A stretch of 35,765 nt of DNA from Pseudomonadales bacterium (lineage in GTDB: Bacteria > Pseudomonadota > Gammaproteobacteria > Pseudomonadales > Pseudohongiellaceae). The stretch is taken from positions 1 to 35,765 of the forward strand of contig JAIRJU010000063.1 of assembly GCA_031260485.1 (NCBI GenBank), written 5' to 3'. The number at the start of each line of letters is the position of its first letter. Positions within the stretch are counted from its first letter, which is position 1. The position numbers were made by a program, and so were the translations under genes. The notes beneath the pieces were generated by a model that saw nothing but the letters and a program-made list of their open reading frames with translations, had not been told where the DNA came from and searched no databases. Shown piece by piece: positions 6,073 to 15,548 of this stretch.

Positions 6073-9000
6073 TTAGAAACTATAGTTGAGCTGCACGCCA
6101 ATGGTGCGCGGGCGCGCCATGCTGCCGTTGATGTAGCCGCCGCTGTCGGCGTTGGCGCTGGTGCCGGGGAGGCGGTACGTCTGCTGATGGTTGGTCAGGT
6201 TGGTGACGTACAGCGCGTAATCGATACCTTGCACGTTGACGCCCGCGCGCATGTTCAGGTTGTAGTTGGACAGCGCCATCCAGGTCCAGGGGTTGTAGGC
6301 GTTGGTCAGACCGGCGTTGTAGCGGTCGAGTTCGGCCTGCGAGCCTTGCACGTAGGAATCCGTGTAGGAGTAATCGCCACGGATATAGGCATCGTTACCG
6401 CCCACCTGGAAATCGTACTGCGGGCTGATCGAGAACGACCAGTCAGGTACGCCACCCAGATTGTCGCCTTTCTTGAACACCACGTTGCTGGCGGGGTTGG
6501 TGGGATTGGATAGGATGTCTTCAGCGTAAGCGGCCTTGTTGTAGCTGACATTGATGCCCAGGCTCAGATCGCCGAAACGGCCCGTGGCCTGCACTTCCGC
6601 GCCCTTGGATACAGCGCTGCCCGCGTTGTTGAGGTAGCTGAAACCGCAGGCGACGTTCTGGCTGTACTGCATCTGGGTCCAGTCGATGTAGAACAGCGCA
6701 GAGTTGAGCTGCACCCGGCCGTCGAGAACCCGCGCCTTGTTACCGATTTCGTAACTGGTCACGGTGTCTTGCTTGTAGGTGAGCGGGCTTTGGGTCAAGC
6801 CCAGGTCAGCCAAAGCCTGTTGGCACTGGCCACTGGCGGGTACCGGCGGGTTCACGCCGCCCGGACGGAAGCCCTTGGAGTAGAGCGCATAGACCATGTT
6901 TCTGTCGTCGATCTGATACGACAAGCCTACCTTCGGCGTGGTGTTCGTCTCTTTCGATGACAAGATGGTGTACTGCACGCCGCAATGCGACGAATCGGGG
7001 CAGCCTGTGAGGTCGGTAGGGAACAGGATGTTCTGTACCGCTGGGTTGGTTAAATCCACCACTGGGTTAGTGGCCGAGTTCGGCTTGGTCGGATCCTGCG
7101 AGACGAACTGCACATCCGCCGCCAGCGGCATGAAGGCATCCTGCTCCATGCCGGGGATGGTGATGCGCGGCGGGAAGCCGGCAACGAGCGCACCGTACTG
7201 TTGGCGGAAATCCTGCTTGTACTTGTTGTAGCGCAGGCCCAGCGTCAGCGTCAGTTTGTCGGTGATGTCGTAGTTGCCTTCGGCGAACACCGCCCAGGTT
7301 TTCTCGCCCATCCACACTTCGCGGTCAGACACATCCTGCTGCCAGGTGTCGAACGCGCCAACGCCCGCGGGCGAATTCACGCCCCACTGCGGCAAGAAGT
7401 ACCCGCCCCCGCGCCAGATGCCGGAAAGGCCGCTCAAGTGCATGGCGACAGCGTTTTCGTTGCTGGTTTCACGGCCGTGCATGTGGATGTCGGAATCGCT
7501 GTAGTAAAGGCCGCCCACCCAAGACAGCGGGCCTCTGCCGTTGGAGGTGAAACGCAATTCCTCGCTCTTGGAGGTGCGCTGGTTTTCGTAGTTGTACCAA
7601 TCGGCATAGCCTGGGAAACCCGGTACGTAGCGGATGCCGCGGTAGCACGCCTGCGGATCGCCTGGGTTGAGGCCAGGGCGCAGCGCGTTGATGCCTTCCA
7701 CGCACTGCGTGGTGCCCCAGATATAGTTGCCAAGGTTACGGGTGCCGCCGCCGGTACCACCGGTGAAGGTGTAACCATGCGTTTCATCATCGACATAGCT
7801 GGTGATCGAACGCACCGAGAAGCCATCGAAGGTGCCGTCGATCGTCAAGGACGGCAGCATCAAACGGGTGTTGCGTGGCGAGGCCACGTACTGAACACCG
7901 CCAGGCTGGGTCGAGCTATACAAGCCGGTGCCAATGGAATCGTAGTTGTACCAGGGCATGGCGTTTTGGGTATGTGCCGGAATTTCCTGGTCGAGGCCCG
8001 CGTAATAGTACGTTACCGGGCTGCCGTTCTTGTCGACGAAATTCAAGCGGCCAACGCCCGCGGTGTAGTTGCCGCCCGCACCCGGACGGTTGCTGTTGGT
8101 GAAGCCCACCACCGGCTGCGAATTCGGGCCGTATTTGCTGTAATCAATCGCTGGGTTGGGAATACCGTTGCGGAACACGGAGCCCGACCAGGTGATCTGT
8201 TCCGAGGGCCCCCAGACGTTATTGCTGTCGTTGGAATAATCACCGCCCCAGTACAAGGCAGGCGTCAGCGACCAGGTGTTATCAATCTCCCACAACACGG
8301 AGGCGCGGACATATTTGGTTTCGTTCCAGTTGTTGTTTTCAGAGAACGTGAGGCCGTCGTAGACGCTCTTGGAATCGACCCAGCCGCCTTGCTTGCGGTA
8401 ATCGCCGCTGACACGGAAACCCAGCGTGTTTTCAACCAACGGGCCGCCGAACGCAAAGCCCACTTCCTTGGAGGGAGCGCCTTGTTCAGTGTTGGCACCA
8501 TCGAAACGCAATCTGCCGGAAAACTCGGTCAAGCTTGGTGTAGGCGTGATGAAACGGATCGTGCCGCCTTCGGAGGAATCGCCATACAAGGTGCCTTGCG
8601 GGCCGCGCAACACTTCGACGCGCTCAACATCATACAAATTGGGGAACGGCGCGCCGTTACCGGTTTGCAGACCGTTGATCATGCGGCGCTGTAGCGCGGT
8701 GTCGTCGAGATAGAAGCCGGTGGTTTGCGAGCCAACAGTGCTGCCGCCGCCAATGCCGCGGATAACGAAGCGCGGGTTACGATCGCCGCCGCTCTCCACG
8801 AATTGCAAGCCGGGCACTACGCGCTGAAGATCAGCACCAACGCGGATGCCCTGATTGGTCATGCTTTCCTGACTGACGGCGCTGATCGACATCGGCACCT
8901 GATTGAGAGCCGCCGACTGGCGCGTCGCCGTTACCGTGATTTCTTCGAGAATGCCGCCCGCGGCGGTAGGGTCCTGCTGCGCGTGAACAGACCCCGCCAT

Positions 9001-9081
9001 GAGGCTGGCCAGCGCCGAGAAACAAAATGGCAGGGCTGGGCGCAGCCCTTTGGATTGGAATCCACGATGTGCATGGAACAT
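6073..9081 (-). CDS. TonB-dependent receptor A (1002 aa)
   Basis: Signal peptide, TonB box LEEITVTATRQ (8920-8949), plug FYLDDTALQRRM...VEVLRGPQGTLYGDSSEGGTIRFITPTP, C-terminal ...GVQLNYSF beta-strand. Confidence 0.96.
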   Translation of the reverse strand: MFHAHRGFQSKGLRPALPFCFSALASLMAGSVHAQQDPTAAGGILEEITVTATRQSAALNQVPMSISAVSQESMTNQGIRVGADLQRVVPGLQFVESGGDRNPRFVIRGIGGGSTVGSQTTGFYLDDTALQRRMINGLQTGNGAPFPNLYDVERVEVLRGPQGTLYGDSSEGGTIRFITPTPSLTEFSGRLRFDGANTEQGAPSKEVGFAFGGPLVENTLGFRVSGDYRKQGGWVDSKSVYDGLTFSENNNWNETKYVRASVLWEIDNTWSLTPALYWGGDYSNDSNNVWGPSEQITWSGSVFRNGIPNPAIDYSKYGPNSQPVVGFTNSNRPGAGGNYTAGVGRLNFVDKNGSPVTYYYAGLDQEIPAHTQNAMPWYNYDSIGTGLYSSTQPGGVQYVASPRNTRLMLPSLTIDGTFDGFSVRSITSYVDDETHGYTFTGGTGGGTRNLGNYIWGTTQCVEGINALRPGLNPGDPQACYRGIRYVPGFPGYADWYNYENQRTSKSEELRFTSNGRGPLSWVGGLYYSDSDIHMHGRETSNENAVAMHLSGLSGIWRGGGYFLPQWGVNSPAGVGAFDTWQQDVSDREVWMGEKTWAVFAEGNYDITDKLTLTLGLRYNKYKQDFRQQYGALVAGFPPRITIPGMEQDAFMPLAADVQFVSQDPTKPNSATNPVVDLTNPAVQNILFPTDLTGCPDSSHCGVQYTILSSKETNTTPKVGLSYQIDDRNMVYALYSKGFRPGGVNPPVPASGQCQQALADLGLTQSPLTYKQDTVTSYEIGNKARVLDGRVQLNSALFYIDWTQMQYSQNVACGFSYLNNAGSAVSKGAEVQATGRFGDLSLGINVSYNKAAYAEDILSNPTNPASNVVFKKGDNLGGVPDWSFSISPQYDFQVGGNDAYIRGDYSYTDSYVQGSQAELDRYNAGLTNAYNPWTWMALSNYNLNMRAGVNVQGIDYALYVTNLTNHQQTYRLPGTSANADSGGYINGSMARPRTIGVQLNYSF

Positions 9082-9544: not shown

Positions 9545-9635
9545 CTAAGCGCGGTAGGCTAGGCTGCTAAACCCAGCCTTTCCATCGACCGCCAGCCAGT
9601 TTGTGCTGGGTTTGGCAACCCGGCCTACCTTGCTG
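9545..9635. repeat. 91-bp palindromic repeat copy 1
   Basis: CTAAGCGCGGTAGGCTAGGCTGCTAAACCCAGC...GGGTTTGGCAACCCGGCCTACCTTGCTG; ~25-bp terminal inverted repeats; about 5 mismatches to the copy at 10133-10223. Confidence 0.85.
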
Positions 9636-9701: not shown

Positions 9702-10103
9702 TTAAAATATGCCTAGCAAAGCCACCCCCCCCGCTTGCTGCGCAGCATTGTCGTAGACGGCTGTGTCCGGCCCAAAGATGCTAACTGCGGCAATGCCCAC
9801 CAACACCAATAGACCAAACCAGCGTCCCCACCGTTTTCGCCTGAAAATCCCGACGCAACCCGCCAAGAGCACCCCCACGGAAACGATTTGCAAGCCAATA
9901 ACAGCGGGTATCCCTTCTGGATTAGGAAGCTGACTGATATTTGGCACAACCAAAAGGAGATATTGCACCAAGTTGACAGAAGACATGAAACTGTACAGCA
10001 CAATAACGCCCAGCAGAAACCATATGGAAACTGGACGTGGATTGAGCGACCGAGGCGTTTCTGCATCAGCATTAACAACAGAAGGGCTGTTTGGATTTTT
10101 CAT
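9702..10103 (-). CDS. Small multi-spanning membrane protein, hypothetical (133 aa)
   Basis: SIWFLLGVIVLYSFMSSVNLVQYLLLVV, IPAVIGLQIVSVGVLLAGCVGIF, GRWFGLLVLVGIAAVSIFG: three hydrophobic segments; bounded by the 91-bp repeats; contains a G8 tract near the 3' end. Confidence 0.65.
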   Translation of the reverse strand: MKNPNSPSVVNADAETPRSLNPRPVSIWFLLGVIVLYSFMSSVNLVQYLLLVVPNISQLPNPEGIPAVIGLQIVSVGVLLAGCVGIFRRKRWGRWFGLLVLVGIAAVSIFGPDTAVYDNAAQQAGGVALLGIF

Positions 10104-10132: not shown

Positions 10133-10223
10133 CTAAGCGCGGTAGGCTGGGTTGTTAAACCCAGCTTTTCCATCGACCGCCAGCCAGTTTGTGCTGAGTT
10201 TGGCAACCCGGCCTACCTTGCTG
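10133..10223. repeat. 91-bp palindromic repeat copy 2
   Basis: CTAAGCGCGGTAGGCTGGGTTGTTAAACCCAGC...GAGTTTGGCAACCCGGCCTACCTTGCTG; direct orientation relative to copy 1, just downstream of the Imm53 stop. Confidence 0.85.
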
Positions 10224-10236
10224 TGCTCAGCGACAT

Positions 10237-10521
10237 TTATTCAGCCCATATAAGGAATTTTTCAATCATTTCACCAAGATTCATTACTCCGCCAAATGCC
10301 TCAAAAACGTCCCCATTTCTGCGTGCAAAAATCCAATCACTATCTGATCTATCAATTTTAACTTCTTGAAATTTTTCATGCTCCATATTTGTATTTTTTA
10401 GGTCTATTTTTATAGACCACCCAGGATTATCTAAAGTATCAATTTTAACTCCGCAGTCTTCATGCCAACCATCTACACATTGCCGCGAAAACCAGGCGCA
10501 AAGCTTTGTGATGTTATCCAT
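10237..10521 (-). CDS. Immunity protein, Imm53 family
   Basis: WFSRQCVDGWHEDCGVKIDTLDNPGWSIKIDLKNTNMEHEKFQEVKIDRSDSDWIFARRNGDVFEAFGGVMNLGEMIEKFLIWAE matches the remembered Imm53 pattern (CDGxWEH...GVxIxTLDNPGWxVxIDLxxT...FxxW); start codon overlaps the upstream toxin stop (TGATG). Confidence 0.88.
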   Translation of the reverse strand: MDNITKLCAWFSRQCVDGWHEDCGVKIDTLDNPGWSIKIDLKNTNMEHEKFQEVKIDRSDSDWIFARRNGDVFEAFGGVMNLGEMIEKFLIWAE

Positions 10522-12392
10522 CAGTTACCCCTCCTTTCTATGGCTTTCTGTGCAGTCCGAATGTCATCCATCGTCGCTGCTCGAGTTATTCCAGGGCTCA
10601 GACTCGCTTGGCCGTTCGGCGCAACATTAAGGTCTTGAAATTTCACATGTGGAGTTGGAATTTCTTCACCGAGCGATTTCTCAAAATGAGCCTTTCCAGC
10701 GAGGTCAATCTGCATTCGGCCAGATGGAGTCATAACGGAGACGCGGTTCTTTCCAATTTGTTCAGCAAGATTGGCACCAGCCTCCTCAACGGTCAAAACT
10801 TTTGATGAAATACTCTCTGCAACGTCCAAAGCATGAGCCGCATCACCAACCTCATCCACCACCTTCGCAACATCCGCCGCCTCATTCACCACCTTGGTCG
10901 CATCAACCAACTTATCCGCGCCCAGCGCCACCTTGCCCACGATGCCAACGGCTTTGACCACTGACCCAAGCGGTACCACCGCCGACACCAGCGAGCCCGC
11001 CTTCTGCGCCGTGTTATTCAACGTGAACGGCTCGCTAACCAGATTCTTCGTGCGTAACTGGTTGGCCTCTGCCGCCAGCGCGTTGGCTTGTTCAACGTCG
11101 CCGTTGTTGTAGGCGTCCACGGCGCGCGCATCGCGCGCTGATGCTTCTCTCAAGGTGCCTGCAAGGAACTTGCCCGTCGTGATCGCCAGATTCCACGCAT
11201 TCGCGGGCAGATTACCTAGCCCTTTGAGAATGCCAAGGTCCAGGTTAAGCACACTGTCCACGCTGGCGCTGGCTACCTGATTGATGGCTTCGGCGGTACC
11301 GGTAGCGGCATTGACGACTTTCTGCCCGAGCGAGCTTGGGTTTTTGATAAGGTCGATAACGGTTTGAAGCGCGGCATCGCCCAACTCAGCCGCAGTTTCA
11401 ACCACCGTATCTACTGCGGCGCCGACCATTTGCGTGGTGGTATCGGCGACTTTTTCCACAAACGAGCGTGGGTCATTGGCGTCGTCGATGAGCGCTTGCA
11501 GGGCATCGTTGGGCCCAATCCTGTGTGTGGTAATGATGATCTCTTCTATGTCCGAGGGTGCGTCCTCATCATCGTTTTGGGCGAGCGTTGCATCATTTTT
11601 GGAATGATCGTCTAAGGGAGGAGGTTCATCCTCGATCTGGGCGACGTCGTCCGGCGCTTGATCTGAATTGCTGCTGCCTGCACCTGTGTTATCCCAGTCA
11701 AGATCAATGACTGAGGGAGCAAGCGCAGTTAAATTTAAGGGAAGTTCAGGCAATACCGGTTCAGGCTTGTGCCCGTAAATCTGGAGTACCTCTATAGCTT
11801 GGCTGTCTTCTTGGGCGTCGTTATCCGTTTCAGCGCCGCTGCCTGTGTAGTAGGTGGTTTCCTGAGCATCCCCGGTGCCGCTATCGTTCGTAAATAACCA
11901 ACCGATCGTTAAATCAAGGTCTAGTGAGGGCGCTTGCTTGCCGACAATGGTGATTTCTTCTATGGCCGGGTTGGCAGCGGGAAGCGGTGCGTAAACATTG
12001 ATTGCGTTTGGGTTCGGGGCGGGGCCATCGTCCTTGGCTGCTTCGGTGTCGTTCTGAGTGTCGTTAATGATCGTGATGGTGGTGGTGCCATCTGGTTCTT
12101 CGGTGCGGATTAAATTTTCTTCCGGAATTTCGGTCCAGCCTGTGTAGTAAGTGCCTTCATCCCAGTAGCCGCCGTCTCCGCCGCTACTAAATATGGCGCC
12201 CCAGCCTAAGGTGTCTGCGGCGTCGTAGGAGCCGTAAACGTTGAGCACCTCGATGCCCGTAGGCATACCGTAGACGTCAACTTCGATCCATGCCTCGACC
12301 CAATCATTGATTATTCCCCGAAACCAATTACCCGTCACTGGATCAATGCCTTCAACCATGTGATCGACCCACATGCCAATGTACATACCCAT
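10521..12392 (-). CDS. Polymorphic-toxin-like protein with repeated TonB-box-like motifs and a C-terminal toxin domain (type-24-like from memory)
   Basis: 623 aa; acidic N-terminal half with IEEITIVG/IEVLQIYG/IEEIIITT motifs; Ala-rich helical middle (aa ~300-540); C-term MTPSGRMQIDLAGKAHFEKSLGEEIPTPHVKFQDLNVAPNG...ITRAATMDDIRTAQKAIERRGN; overlapping downstream Imm53. Confidence 0.75.
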   Translation of the reverse strand: MGMYIGMWVDHMVEGIDPVTGNWFRGIINDWVEAWIEVDVYGMPTGIEVLNVYGSYDAADTLGWGAIFSSGGDGGYWDEGTYYTGWTEIPEENLIRTEEPDGTTTITIINDTQNDTEAAKDDGPAPNPNAINVYAPLPAANPAIEEITIVGKQAPSLDLDLTIGWLFTNDSGTGDAQETTYYTGSGAETDNDAQEDSQAIEVLQIYGHKPEPVLPELPLNLTALAPSVIDLDWDNTGAGSSNSDQAPDDVAQIEDEPPPLDDHSKNDATLAQNDDEDAPSDIEEIIITTHRIGPNDALQALIDDANDPRSFVEKVADTTTQMVGAAVDTVVETAAELGDAALQTVIDLIKNPSSLGQKVVNAATGTAEAINQVASASVDSVLNLDLGILKGLGNLPANAWNLAITTGKFLAGTLREASARDARAVDAYNNGDVEQANALAAEANQLRTKNLVSEPFTLNNTAQKAGSLVSAVVPLGSVVKAVGIVGKVALGADKLVDATKVVNEAADVAKVVDEVGDAAHALDVAESISSKVLTVEEAGANLAEQIGKNRVSVMTPSGRMQIDLAGKAHFEKSLGEEIPTPHVKFQDLNVAPNGQASLSPGITRAATMDDIRTAQKAIERRGN

Positions 12393-12524: not shown

Positions 12525-15500
12525 TTAGAAATCGTAGTTCACCTGCACCCCAATCGTGCGAGGGCGCAACATAATACCGCCCATGTAGTTGCTGTCGCCG
12601 TTGTCAGTAGTGCCGGTGTAACGGTGTACTGCTTCGCGGTTGTTGAGGTTGTTGATGTAAAGCGAGTAGCCGACCCCATTCACGTTGATGCCAGCACGCG
12701 CATTGAGGTTGTAGTTCGGCAGCGTCTTTTCGGTGATCGGGTTATAGGCGTTGGCGATCCCCTGCGCAGCCTTTTCCTTTTCCGCCAACGAGGCATTCTT
12801 GTAAGACGGCGTATACGAATAATCGAAACGTACATAGCCATCGTTGTCGGCCACGCGGAAGTCATATTGCGGGCTGACCGAGAAAGTCCACGGCGCGGTG
12901 TTACCGATATTGTCGCCCTTCATCCGAGTAACGGTGAGCAGGCCGCCCGGCTTGTTCGGGTTTGAATAAATGGTTTCTGCGTATTGCGCTCTGGTGTAAC
13001 CGGCGTTGAAGCCGATACCAAAAGGTCCAAAACGGCCACTGACCTGAAGTTCGCCGCCCTTGGAAACAGCGGAGCCCGCGTTGTTGATATAGCTGAAACC
13101 GCAGGCCACGTTCTGGGTGTACTGCATATTGGTCCAGTCGATATAGAACAGCGCGCTATTGACCTGCACCGTGCCATCGAGTACCCGCAGACGCGCCTTG
13201 TTACCGAGTTCATAGCTGGTCACCTGGTCTTGATTGTAGGTGAGCGGGCTCTGTTCGAGGCCCAGATCGGCCAAAGCCTGCTGACACTGGCCGCTGGCCG
13301 GTACCGGCGGGTTCACGCCACCGGGGCGGAAACCTTTGGTGTAGATGCCGTACACCATGTTGGTGTCGCTGATCTGATAGCCGAGGGCCACCTTCGGCGT
13401 GGTATTGGTTTCAGTCGATGCCAGCCGCGTGTACTGCATGTTGCAATCGGGCGAGTTTGGGCAACCTTCAACGTCGGTGGGGAACATCACCTTGATGATG
13501 TTCGGGTTGAGCAGATCCACGATCGGGTTAGTGGCCGAATTTGGCTTGGTGGGATCGGCCGAAACTGCTTGGACATTCGCCGCCAAGGGGAAGAAGCCAT
13601 CAGCCTCCAGGCCCGGTATGGTGATGCGCTGCGGCAAACCGGCTACCAGCGCGCCATATTGCTGACGGAAGTTCTGCTTGTACTTGTTATAGCGCAAGCC
13701 CAAGGTCAGGGTCAGTTTGTCGGTGATGTCGTAGTTGCCTTCGGCGAATATGGCGGAGGTTTTCTCATCCGTCCACGATTCGCGGTCGGACACGTCTTGC
13801 TGCCAGGTATCGAAGGCGCCGGTGCCGGCCGGCGTGTAGATGCCCCACTGCGGCAGATAGTACCCGCCGCCGCGCCAGATGCTGGAGACGCCGCTCAAGA
13901 ACATGGCGCCCGCGTTTTCGTTACTGGTTTCGCGGCCGTGCATGTGGATCGTGGAATCGCTGAAATACAAGCCTCCTACCCAGCTCAGCCGGCCTTTGCT
14001 ATTGGACGAGAAGCGCAGTTCCTCGCTGGTCATCTTGCGCTGGCTTTCGTAGTTGTACCAATCGGCATATTGCGGGAAGCCTGGCACGTAACGGGTGCTG
14101 CGGTAACAGCCCAAGGGATCGCCGGGGTTGAGGCCAGGGCGCGGGCGGTTGACGTTCGGATCGCAGGCCGTGGTACCCCAGATGTAAGGTGTGCCCAGGT
14201 TACGGGTACCGCCGTTGCCGCCGCTGAAGGAATAACCGTTGGTGCGGTCACTGACATAGCTGGTGACCGACTTGACCGCGAACCAATCGAGATCGACATC
14301 CACCACCAAGGACGGCAGCGTCAAGCGCGTGGTGCGCGGCGAGGGAATGTACACGGCATCGCCGGGAGCGGTCGATTTGTAATAGCCGTTGCCGTTGGAA
14401 TCGAAGTTGTACCAAGGCATGGCATTCTGGGTGAAGGCCGGGACTTCCTGGTCGAGCGCGGCGTAGTAGTAGGTGCGCGAAACGCCGTTGGGATCGTTGT
14501 ACGCGATCTGCCCCACCCCTGCGCGGTAATTGCCGTTGGCGGTAGGGCGGCCCGCCGTGGTGAAGCCCACCACCGGCTTGGAGTTCGGGCCGTATTTGCT
14601 GTAATCGATCGCTGGGTTAGGAATACCGCTGCGGATGATCGAACCCGACCAGGAGATCTGTTCCGAAGGGCTCATGACCGTGCCGTCGTCGTTGGAGTAA
14701 TCCACGCCGCTATAGATAGCAGGCATGATCGACACCCGGTCGTTCACTTGCCACAGCGTTGCCAGGCGCACGTATTTGGATTCGGACCAGTTGATGTTTT
14801 CAGCGAAGGTTTCGCCGTTATACAAGGACTTGGAATCGACATAGCCGCCGGTGCGGGTGTAGTTGCCGCTAACGCGGAAACCCAGAACATCCGGGATCAG
14901 CGGGCCGCCGAAGGCCAGACCGATTTCCTTGGAGGGTGCGCCTTTGTCAGTCTGGGAACCATCGAGACGCATCCTGCCGCTGTATTCGGTCAGGCTGGGC
15001 GTGGGGGTGATGAAACGGATCGTGCCGCCTTCGGAGGAATCGCCGTACAGCGTGCCTTGCGGACCACGCAGCACTTCCACACGCGCCACGTCGTAAAGGT
15101 TGGGGAAGGGCGAGCCGCCGCCGGTCAGAAGGCCCGGCACCGTGCGCCGCTGTAGCGCGGCATCATCGAGATAAAAACCGGTCGTTGCAGAACCGGTGCC
15201 GCTGCTGATGCCGCGGATGGTGAAGTTCGGGTTACGGTCACCGCCGCCTAATGAAAATTGCAAGCCAGGCACCAAACGCTGAAGGTCGGCGCCGCTCTTG
15301 ATGCCTTGCAAGGTCAAACTTTCCTGGCTGAGTGCGCTGATCGACATCGGAATGCTGTTGGCGCTTGCTTCTTGGCGCGTCGCCGTTACCGTGATTTCTT
15401 CGAGCAGTGCGGCGCCTGCCGCGGTATCCCGAACCTGCGCCTGAAGCGTTGAAGCCGCTATGAAGCTTGCCAGCGCCGTAAGGCAGAAGGGTAGCGGCGT

Positions 15501-15548
15501 GAAACGTCTGGATCGAACTGGAACAGATGAGTGATGCGAGTGAAACAT
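12525..15548 (-). CDS. TonB-dependent receptor B (1007 aa), paralogue of receptor A
   Basis: Signal peptide, TonB box LEEITVTATRQ (15375-15404), plug FYLDDAALQRRTVPGLLTGGGSPFPNLYDVARVEVLRGPQGTLYGDSSEGGTIRFITPTP; co-linear with the 1002-aa receptor over its whole length. Confidence 0.96.
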   Translation of the reverse strand: MFHSHHSSVPVRSRRFTPLPFCLTALASFIAASTLQAQVRDTAAGAALLEEITVTATRQEASANSIPMSISALSQESLTLQGIKSGADLQRLVPGLQFSLGGGDRNPNFTIRGISSGTGSATTGFYLDDAALQRRTVPGLLTGGGSPFPNLYDVARVEVLRGPQGTLYGDSSEGGTIRFITPTPSLTEYSGRMRLDGSQTDKGAPSKEIGLAFGGPLIPDVLGFRVSGNYTRTGGYVDSKSLYNGETFAENINWSESKYVRLATLWQVNDRVSIMPAIYSGVDYSNDDGTVMSPSEQISWSGSIIRSGIPNPAIDYSKYGPNSKPVVGFTTAGRPTANGNYRAGVGQIAYNDPNGVSRTYYYAALDQEVPAFTQNAMPWYNFDSNGNGYYKSTAPGDAVYIPSPRTTRLTLPSLVVDVDLDWFAVKSVTSYVSDRTNGYSFSGGNGGTRNLGTPYIWGTTACDPNVNRPRPGLNPGDPLGCYRSTRYVPGFPQYADWYNYESQRKMTSEELRFSSNSKGRLSWVGGLYFSDSTIHMHGRETSNENAGAMFLSGVSSIWRGGGYYLPQWGIYTPAGTGAFDTWQQDVSDRESWTDEKTSAIFAEGNYDITDKLTLTLGLRYNKYKQNFRQQYGALVAGLPQRITIPGLEADGFFPLAANVQAVSADPTKPNSATNPIVDLLNPNIIKVMFPTDVEGCPNSPDCNMQYTRLASTETNTTPKVALGYQISDTNMVYGIYTKGFRPGGVNPPVPASGQCQQALADLGLEQSPLTYNQDQVTSYELGNKARLRVLDGTVQVNSALFYIDWTNMQYTQNVACGFSYINNAGSAVSKGGELQVSGRFGPFGIGFNAGYTRAQYAETIYSNPNKPGGLLTVTRMKGDNIGNTAPWTFSVSPQYDFRVADNDGYVRFDYSYTPSYKNASLAEKEKAAQGIANAYNPITEKTLPNYNLNARAGINVNGVGYSLYINNLNNREAVHRYTGTTDNGDSNYMGGIMLRPRTIGVQVNYDF

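Follow-up and report, generated by a model that had tools for sequence, protein, structure and literature searches.

The DNA analysed here (the window, 35,765 nucleotides of contig JAIRJU010000063.1 from a Pseudomonadales bacterium of the Pseudohongiellaceae) contains on its minus strand, at 10521-12392, an open reading frame (ORF) for a 623-residue protein that we predict to be a member of a lineage-specific antibacterial polymorphic toxin family. The motif repeated in the N-terminal half of these toxins is, as judged from sequence, almost the same as the TonB box found in the producer's TonB-dependent receptors, and the family probably represents a previously undescribed variant of polymorphic toxin that exploits TonB. 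An initial annotation of the window had proposed such a multi-box toxin with an adjacent immunity gene, and the analysis below upholds much of that proposal, but not its expectation that relatives of the gene would recur beside receptor genes.

The window's own genome, a 3.14 Mb draft in 357 contigs, was searched for paralogues of the 623-residue protein, which were found on contigs C150, C52, C126, C188, C154, C226 and C132, while C57 and C166 each hold a short N-terminal end. The family holds 20 copies of the motif IEE[IVL]x[IVL]x[GATS], mostly with a GH[RK] ending, plus VEEITIIG once each on C57 and C166, and motifs are carried by all eight sizeable family gene fragments. Receptor TonB boxes of the same genome read [LIV]EE[IV][QTRV][VI]TGSR and similar. 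When a scoring matrix built from 28 of these TonB boxes was applied with a threshold of 6 bits, the IEE motifs scored 9-27 bits, and each family member gave 1-4 strong matches, compared with an average of 0.04-0.09 in shuffled proteins. Genome-wide, a strict form of the pattern with I or V in front has 18 matches, of which 15 belong to toxin family members and 3 lie at the N-termini of receptors, compared with 1 match for the reversed control. The looser pattern [hydrophobic]EE[IVL]x[IV]x[GA] has 51, which sorting by contig and position divides into 20 within toxin family members, 23 within receptors (22 immediately upstream of a plug-domain match, the other at the right edge of the window) and 8 elsewhere. 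Since these 8 are about background (reversed control, 7), beyond background the motif occurs only in receptors and this toxin family.

Comparison of repeats within the same protein gave 72% identity in the motif columns and 16% in the flanks, which supports the view that the motif core is under selection or has at least been kept in preference to its surroundings, and agrees with the expectation of the initial annotation that motifs would be conserved while linkers diverge. The repeats arise through duplication of modules of about 80 residues, and successive boxes are 74-140 residues apart. This module duplication would also suit a motif that is a beta-strand, protease-processing or spacer element unrelated to TonB and owes its likeness to acidic and hydrophobic composition and the copying of a single module; the degeneracy of several copies in the window protein is consistent with such an element, as is a conserved H-[RK]-x-E-P that follows the core in most toxin copies and is not present in receptors. 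The scarcity of matches in shuffled sequences, the conservation of the core but not its flanks, and the near absence of the pattern from the rest of the genome outside receptors all argue against it, and we consider this explanation quite improbable.

The six peptides named in the initial annotation all lie at the residues it gave for them, but they are unequal in quality, and only two of them look like good TonB boxes. Residues 143-154 (11.7 bits) and 281-292 (19.5 bits) are the only parts of the window protein above the 6-bit threshold. The first contains AIEEITIVGKQ (residues 143-153; 11934-11966, minus strand, as are all coordinates in this paragraph), which the pattern also catches, and the second contains DIEEIIITTHR (281-291; 11520-11552), which borders a helical region and whose IEEI is invariant in five paralogues (alignment A1). 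The other four are weak variants: WIEVDVYG (35-42; 12267-12290), which is under the matrix threshold, GIEVLNVYG (46-54; 12231-12257), which aligns with GVDVIDIYG of the paralogues, AINVYA (130-135; 11988-12005), which aligns with their LIDVYAH or LIDVYEH, and AIEVLQIYGHK (199-209; 11766-11798). These Y-containing variants at 35, 46, 130 and 199 are weak alone and meaningful only alongside the paralogues. The claim of repeated TonB-box-like motifs stands as regards the close match to the genome's own receptor boxes and the 20 family copies, and in the window protein it holds well for two of the six peptides. Residues 1-280 are acidic, as had been said of the linkers (20% aspartate plus glutamate, 2% lysine plus arginine), and hydropathy, the only test made for a signal peptide, shows that an N-terminal hydrophobic segment is absent. 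An AlphaFold model of the whole protein (predicted local distance difference test score, pLDDT, 31) has the N-terminal arm as coil and is uninformative.

The rest of the protein has the organization of a polymorphic toxin. The acidic, motif-bearing half is followed by the last conserved motif and a helical pre-toxin region (residues 281-527; 10812-11552, minus strand), which is 61-75% identical in four paralogues and includes a hydrophobic stretch at residues 467-486 (hydropathy), and then by a variable tip (residues 528-623; 10524-10811, minus strand) of lower G+C content (0.47). Across the family, the body matches the window protein at 61-75% identity through residue 527, and beyond that point the tips share no sequence. 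The search found five C-termini (window, C150, C52, C126 and C188) and five N-terminal fragments in addition to the window gene; since contigs often end within toxin genes, N- and C-terminal pieces cannot be joined, and the family comprises at least five related toxin genes and probably more. Two contig ends, G000:C57:1-120 and G000:C166:18510-18629, read ...KKSKGLECPKEESVEEITIIGYTENLRELTDYWGVSY and begin additional proteins that have a TonB-box-like motif close to their N-terminus.

Where a family could be recognized, the tips are nucleases. C150 carries a colicin E5 RNase domain as its tip (E=2e-32), with ImmE5 downstream (E=2e-12), and C188 carries a CdiA-type RNase A domain (RNAse_A_bac, E=3e-25), with CdiI_2 downstream (E=1e-19). 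The C52 and C126 tips have no family match, and the small ORF after each may be an immunity gene. The 623-residue protein gave zero Pfam family matches and only two insignificant NCBIfam matches; its tip matches no Pfam family, Ntox24 included, has no match in GTDB or PDB, and, modelled alone (pLDDT 66), has no structural match. This tip shares 45% identity over 91 residues with that of a Proteus mirabilis PAAR-Rhs protein (NZ_OL790811, L058), which is likewise followed by Imm53. In the window the Imm53 gene (94 residues; 10237-10521, minus strand; PF15580, E=6e-27) overlaps the toxin stop codon with its start (ATGA). Imm53 is given as the partner of Ntox24 and Ntox10 in the available part of a survey of polymorphic toxins (Zhang et al. 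2012, PMC3482391), and it is solely through this partner listing that the window tip may be tied to Ntox24. Behind the full C188 and C150 genes are truncated pieces of body and tip (L016:5399-6868 and L013:3141-3428), one of them with an intact-looking unrelated tip; these are displaced orphan cassettes, the usual debris of tip exchange. Two DUF6572 genes (PF20212; L013:1872-2207 and L013:2688-3011) follow the ImmE5 gene and are possibly extra immunity genes left by earlier tips. The common body, unrelated tips and adjacent Imm53 gene bear out the designation of the window gene as a polymorphic toxin with an immunity gene; by sequence comparison, the tip is swappable and would be neutralized by the adjacent immunity protein.

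These features lead us to favor, by a modest degree, the idea that the toxin acts in the manner of group B bacteriocins, with TonB-driven import through repeated boxes. The N-terminal half would be a long, acidic and probably disordered delivery arm that bears the motif copies. The toxin would be released without a signal peptide and would thread its N-terminus into a related cell by way of a channel in the outer membrane; there the motif array, which we infer binds TonB, would offer its boxes to the periplasmic TonB domain, and TonB would pull the toxin in using the proton-motive force. Multiple boxes might allow TonB to re-engage as successive segments arrive, or might make first capture likelier, and the helical, partly hydrophobic pre-toxin region could help the tip across the inner membrane. 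Precedent exists for the central steps: disordered N-terminal TonB boxes of PyoS2 and KlebC engage TonB and drive import (PMC8324772), and ColB requires its own TonB box plus that of the receptor (PMC8546555). Several boxes per chain would also favor retention of TonB, so that the same motif evidence could describe a periplasmic TonB decoy that starves the victim of receptor-mediated uptake, the tip being a second activity; however, the recognized tips are nucleases with dedicated immunity whose action is expected in the cytoplasm, so delivery past the periplasm is expected, and we regard a decoy as extremely improbable.

Among known systems, group B bacteriocins (colicins B, D, M, Ia and 5/10; pyocins S2, S5 and G; klebicin C) come close in that they too are leaderless and have a C-terminal cytotoxic domain, a neighboring immunity gene and a TonB-box-like sequence in a flexible N-terminal arm, and one member of the toxin family has a colicin E5 RNase tip. 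Group B bacteriocins, insofar as the available portions of the literature describe them, have one TonB box per toxin, whereas the toxin family has up to four strong copies over about 300 residues. With polymorphic toxin systems, as surveyed by Zhang et al. (2012, PMC3482391), the family has in common the shared body, swappable tips, cognate immunity and orphan cassettes, and the accessible text of that survey leaves TonB unmentioned. The features of CdiA (TPS domain, filamentous haemagglutinin repeats) gave no Pfam match in the family body, and there is no signal peptide. We know of no trafficking type in the survey's list that fits the delivery module.

Several observations weigh against TonB-driven import. 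The end of the motif differs between the two groups of proteins: most toxin copies finish with GH[RK], receptors with GS/GT-R. Between C226 and C132, the two closest paralogues, nonsynonymous changes number 4/40 in motifs and 29/247 in linkers, and these similar rates mean that the recent pair lends no extra support to selection on the motif. The family also departs from group B bacteriocins in being multigene within one genome and in having no recognized receptor-binding domain (no family match in toxin family members; a conserved block at residues 73-134 is a candidate receptor-binding region) and no LexA-like box (none directly upstream of the toxin start, and a chance-level total in the window). 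SOS (LexA) control is common among colicins but not universal. A lysis gene was not identified, plug-domain matches are absent from the nine other contigs bearing family members, and a full-length type VI secretion sheath gene is present in the genome.

Because of that sheath gene, type VI delivery is the main rival and a live one. The toxins would then be type VI cargo effectors whose N-terminal half binds VgrG, Hcp or an adaptor, and the motif would be a docking motif that resembles a TonB box by convergence. The lack of a signal peptide fits this explanation, as does the occurrence of the same tips in Rhs-type toxins, namely the Proteus PAAR-Rhs protein and an Rhs protein in G242. The delivery part of the Proteus effector, however, consists of PAAR and Rhs, and the window protein has neither; more generally, family members have no Pfam or NCBIfam match to a delivery domain, whether PAAR, Rhs, VgrG, Hcp or another. 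On the toxin contigs, which had no gene-by-gene annotation, type VI genes were not noticed next to the toxin loci. Moreover, if the motif served docking, one would not expect it to agree with the genome's own TonB boxes along ten residues, nor to be confined to toxins and receptors. On balance we consider type VI delivery unlikely.

The neighborhood of the window gene is less telling than it might appear. The toxin and immunity genes sit between two TonB-dependent receptor genes, one upstream (12525-15548, minus strand) and one downstream (6073-9081, minus strand), that are 68% identical to each other, and the toxin lies inside a receptor duplication; both receptors begin with LEEITVTATR, the upstream one's TonB box, as had been reported. 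Since the genome has 34 plug-domain matches in 3.1 Mb, a single receptor-adjacent toxin locus is uninformative. Co-localization with receptors was therefore rejected as a general rule, as only the window locus adjoins receptors; the lack of receptor neighbors elsewhere bears on receptor linkage and not on the use of TonB. The same 34 matches could supply a transporter for a different role of the boxes, in which they would serve export from the producer through its own TonB-dependent transporter, as PopC is exported through Oar in Myxococcus. PopC of Myxococcus xanthus, like the toxin, is leaderless and crosses the outer membrane via a TonB-dependent transporter, and its export depends on the Ton system and the Oar TonB box (PMC6434023, in the part available). 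In that system, though, the relevant TonB box sits in the transporter, and a substrate box is not described in the available part of that paper; PopC is an exported protease rather than an imported toxin of the kind proposed here, and toxin genes are unlinked to receptors save in the window. Export by this route seems to us very unlikely.

In searches of other genomes, the family seems restricted to its own. In a search of 58 relatives and 11 genus genomes, the family body (profile A1) was found in its own genome alone; no confirmed match was obtained in GTDB contigs or viral contigs and none in phages, and plasmid matches were restricted to the tip. The scans of the GTDB, viral, plasmid and phage collections were seeded by short peptide patterns, so distant relatives could be missed. 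A search of 137 genomes of the bacterium's taxonomic family with the C132 N-terminal repeat gave one weak match (G791, E=0.008) that was judged spurious after inspection, and a mixed alignment (A2) yielded no usable block. An order-wide search for the motif with the toxin-type ending gave scattered single matches outside this genome, with no arrays at the nine loci scanned. Among 369 class genomes, two boxes 222-252 nucleotides apart were matched 7 times here and once, in isolation, in the 368 others (reversed control, 0); this pattern covers only that spacing, and arrays with other spacing or box variants could exist. TonB-box-like strings may occur in other proteobacterial toxins as well. 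Among the open-licence papers searched, no description of several TonB boxes within one toxin was found, in keeping with the initial annotation, which knew of no account of such a toxin; where two or additional TonB boxes are mentioned there, the colicin and its receptor contribute one each (PMC8546555).

Other features of the window were noted. An ORF of 133 residues with membrane segments (9702-10103, minus strand), which has no family above the cut-off, is flanked by the immunity gene and the downstream receptor gene, and a role for it as a lysis or export helper is conceivable. Around this ORF the element TAGGCxGGGTTxxxAAACxCAGC occurs three times (9605-9627, minus; 10143-10165, plus; 10193-10215, minus), with zero expected by chance, and it looks like a palindromic extragenic repeat. 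Promoter and terminator scans were at chance level.

We suggest, tentatively, that the TonB-box array defines a delivery class of polymorphic toxins in which a leaderless toxin, whose disordered arm bears boxes of the type that the producer's receptors have, is hauled by TonB over the outer membrane in repeated strokes, replacing a secretion machine or a single-box arm. If true, this would add to polymorphic toxins a trafficking mode that the available part of the 2012 survey does not mention. To our knowledge, it is an open question whether TonB moves long polypeptides by one pull per box or by a single box with unfolding that continues thereafter. Toxins that form a natural series varying in box number and chain length would make these pulling modes testable. 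The finding also suggests a detection rule for receptor-rich bacteria, namely that the host's own TonB box be sought, repeated, in non-receptor proteins.
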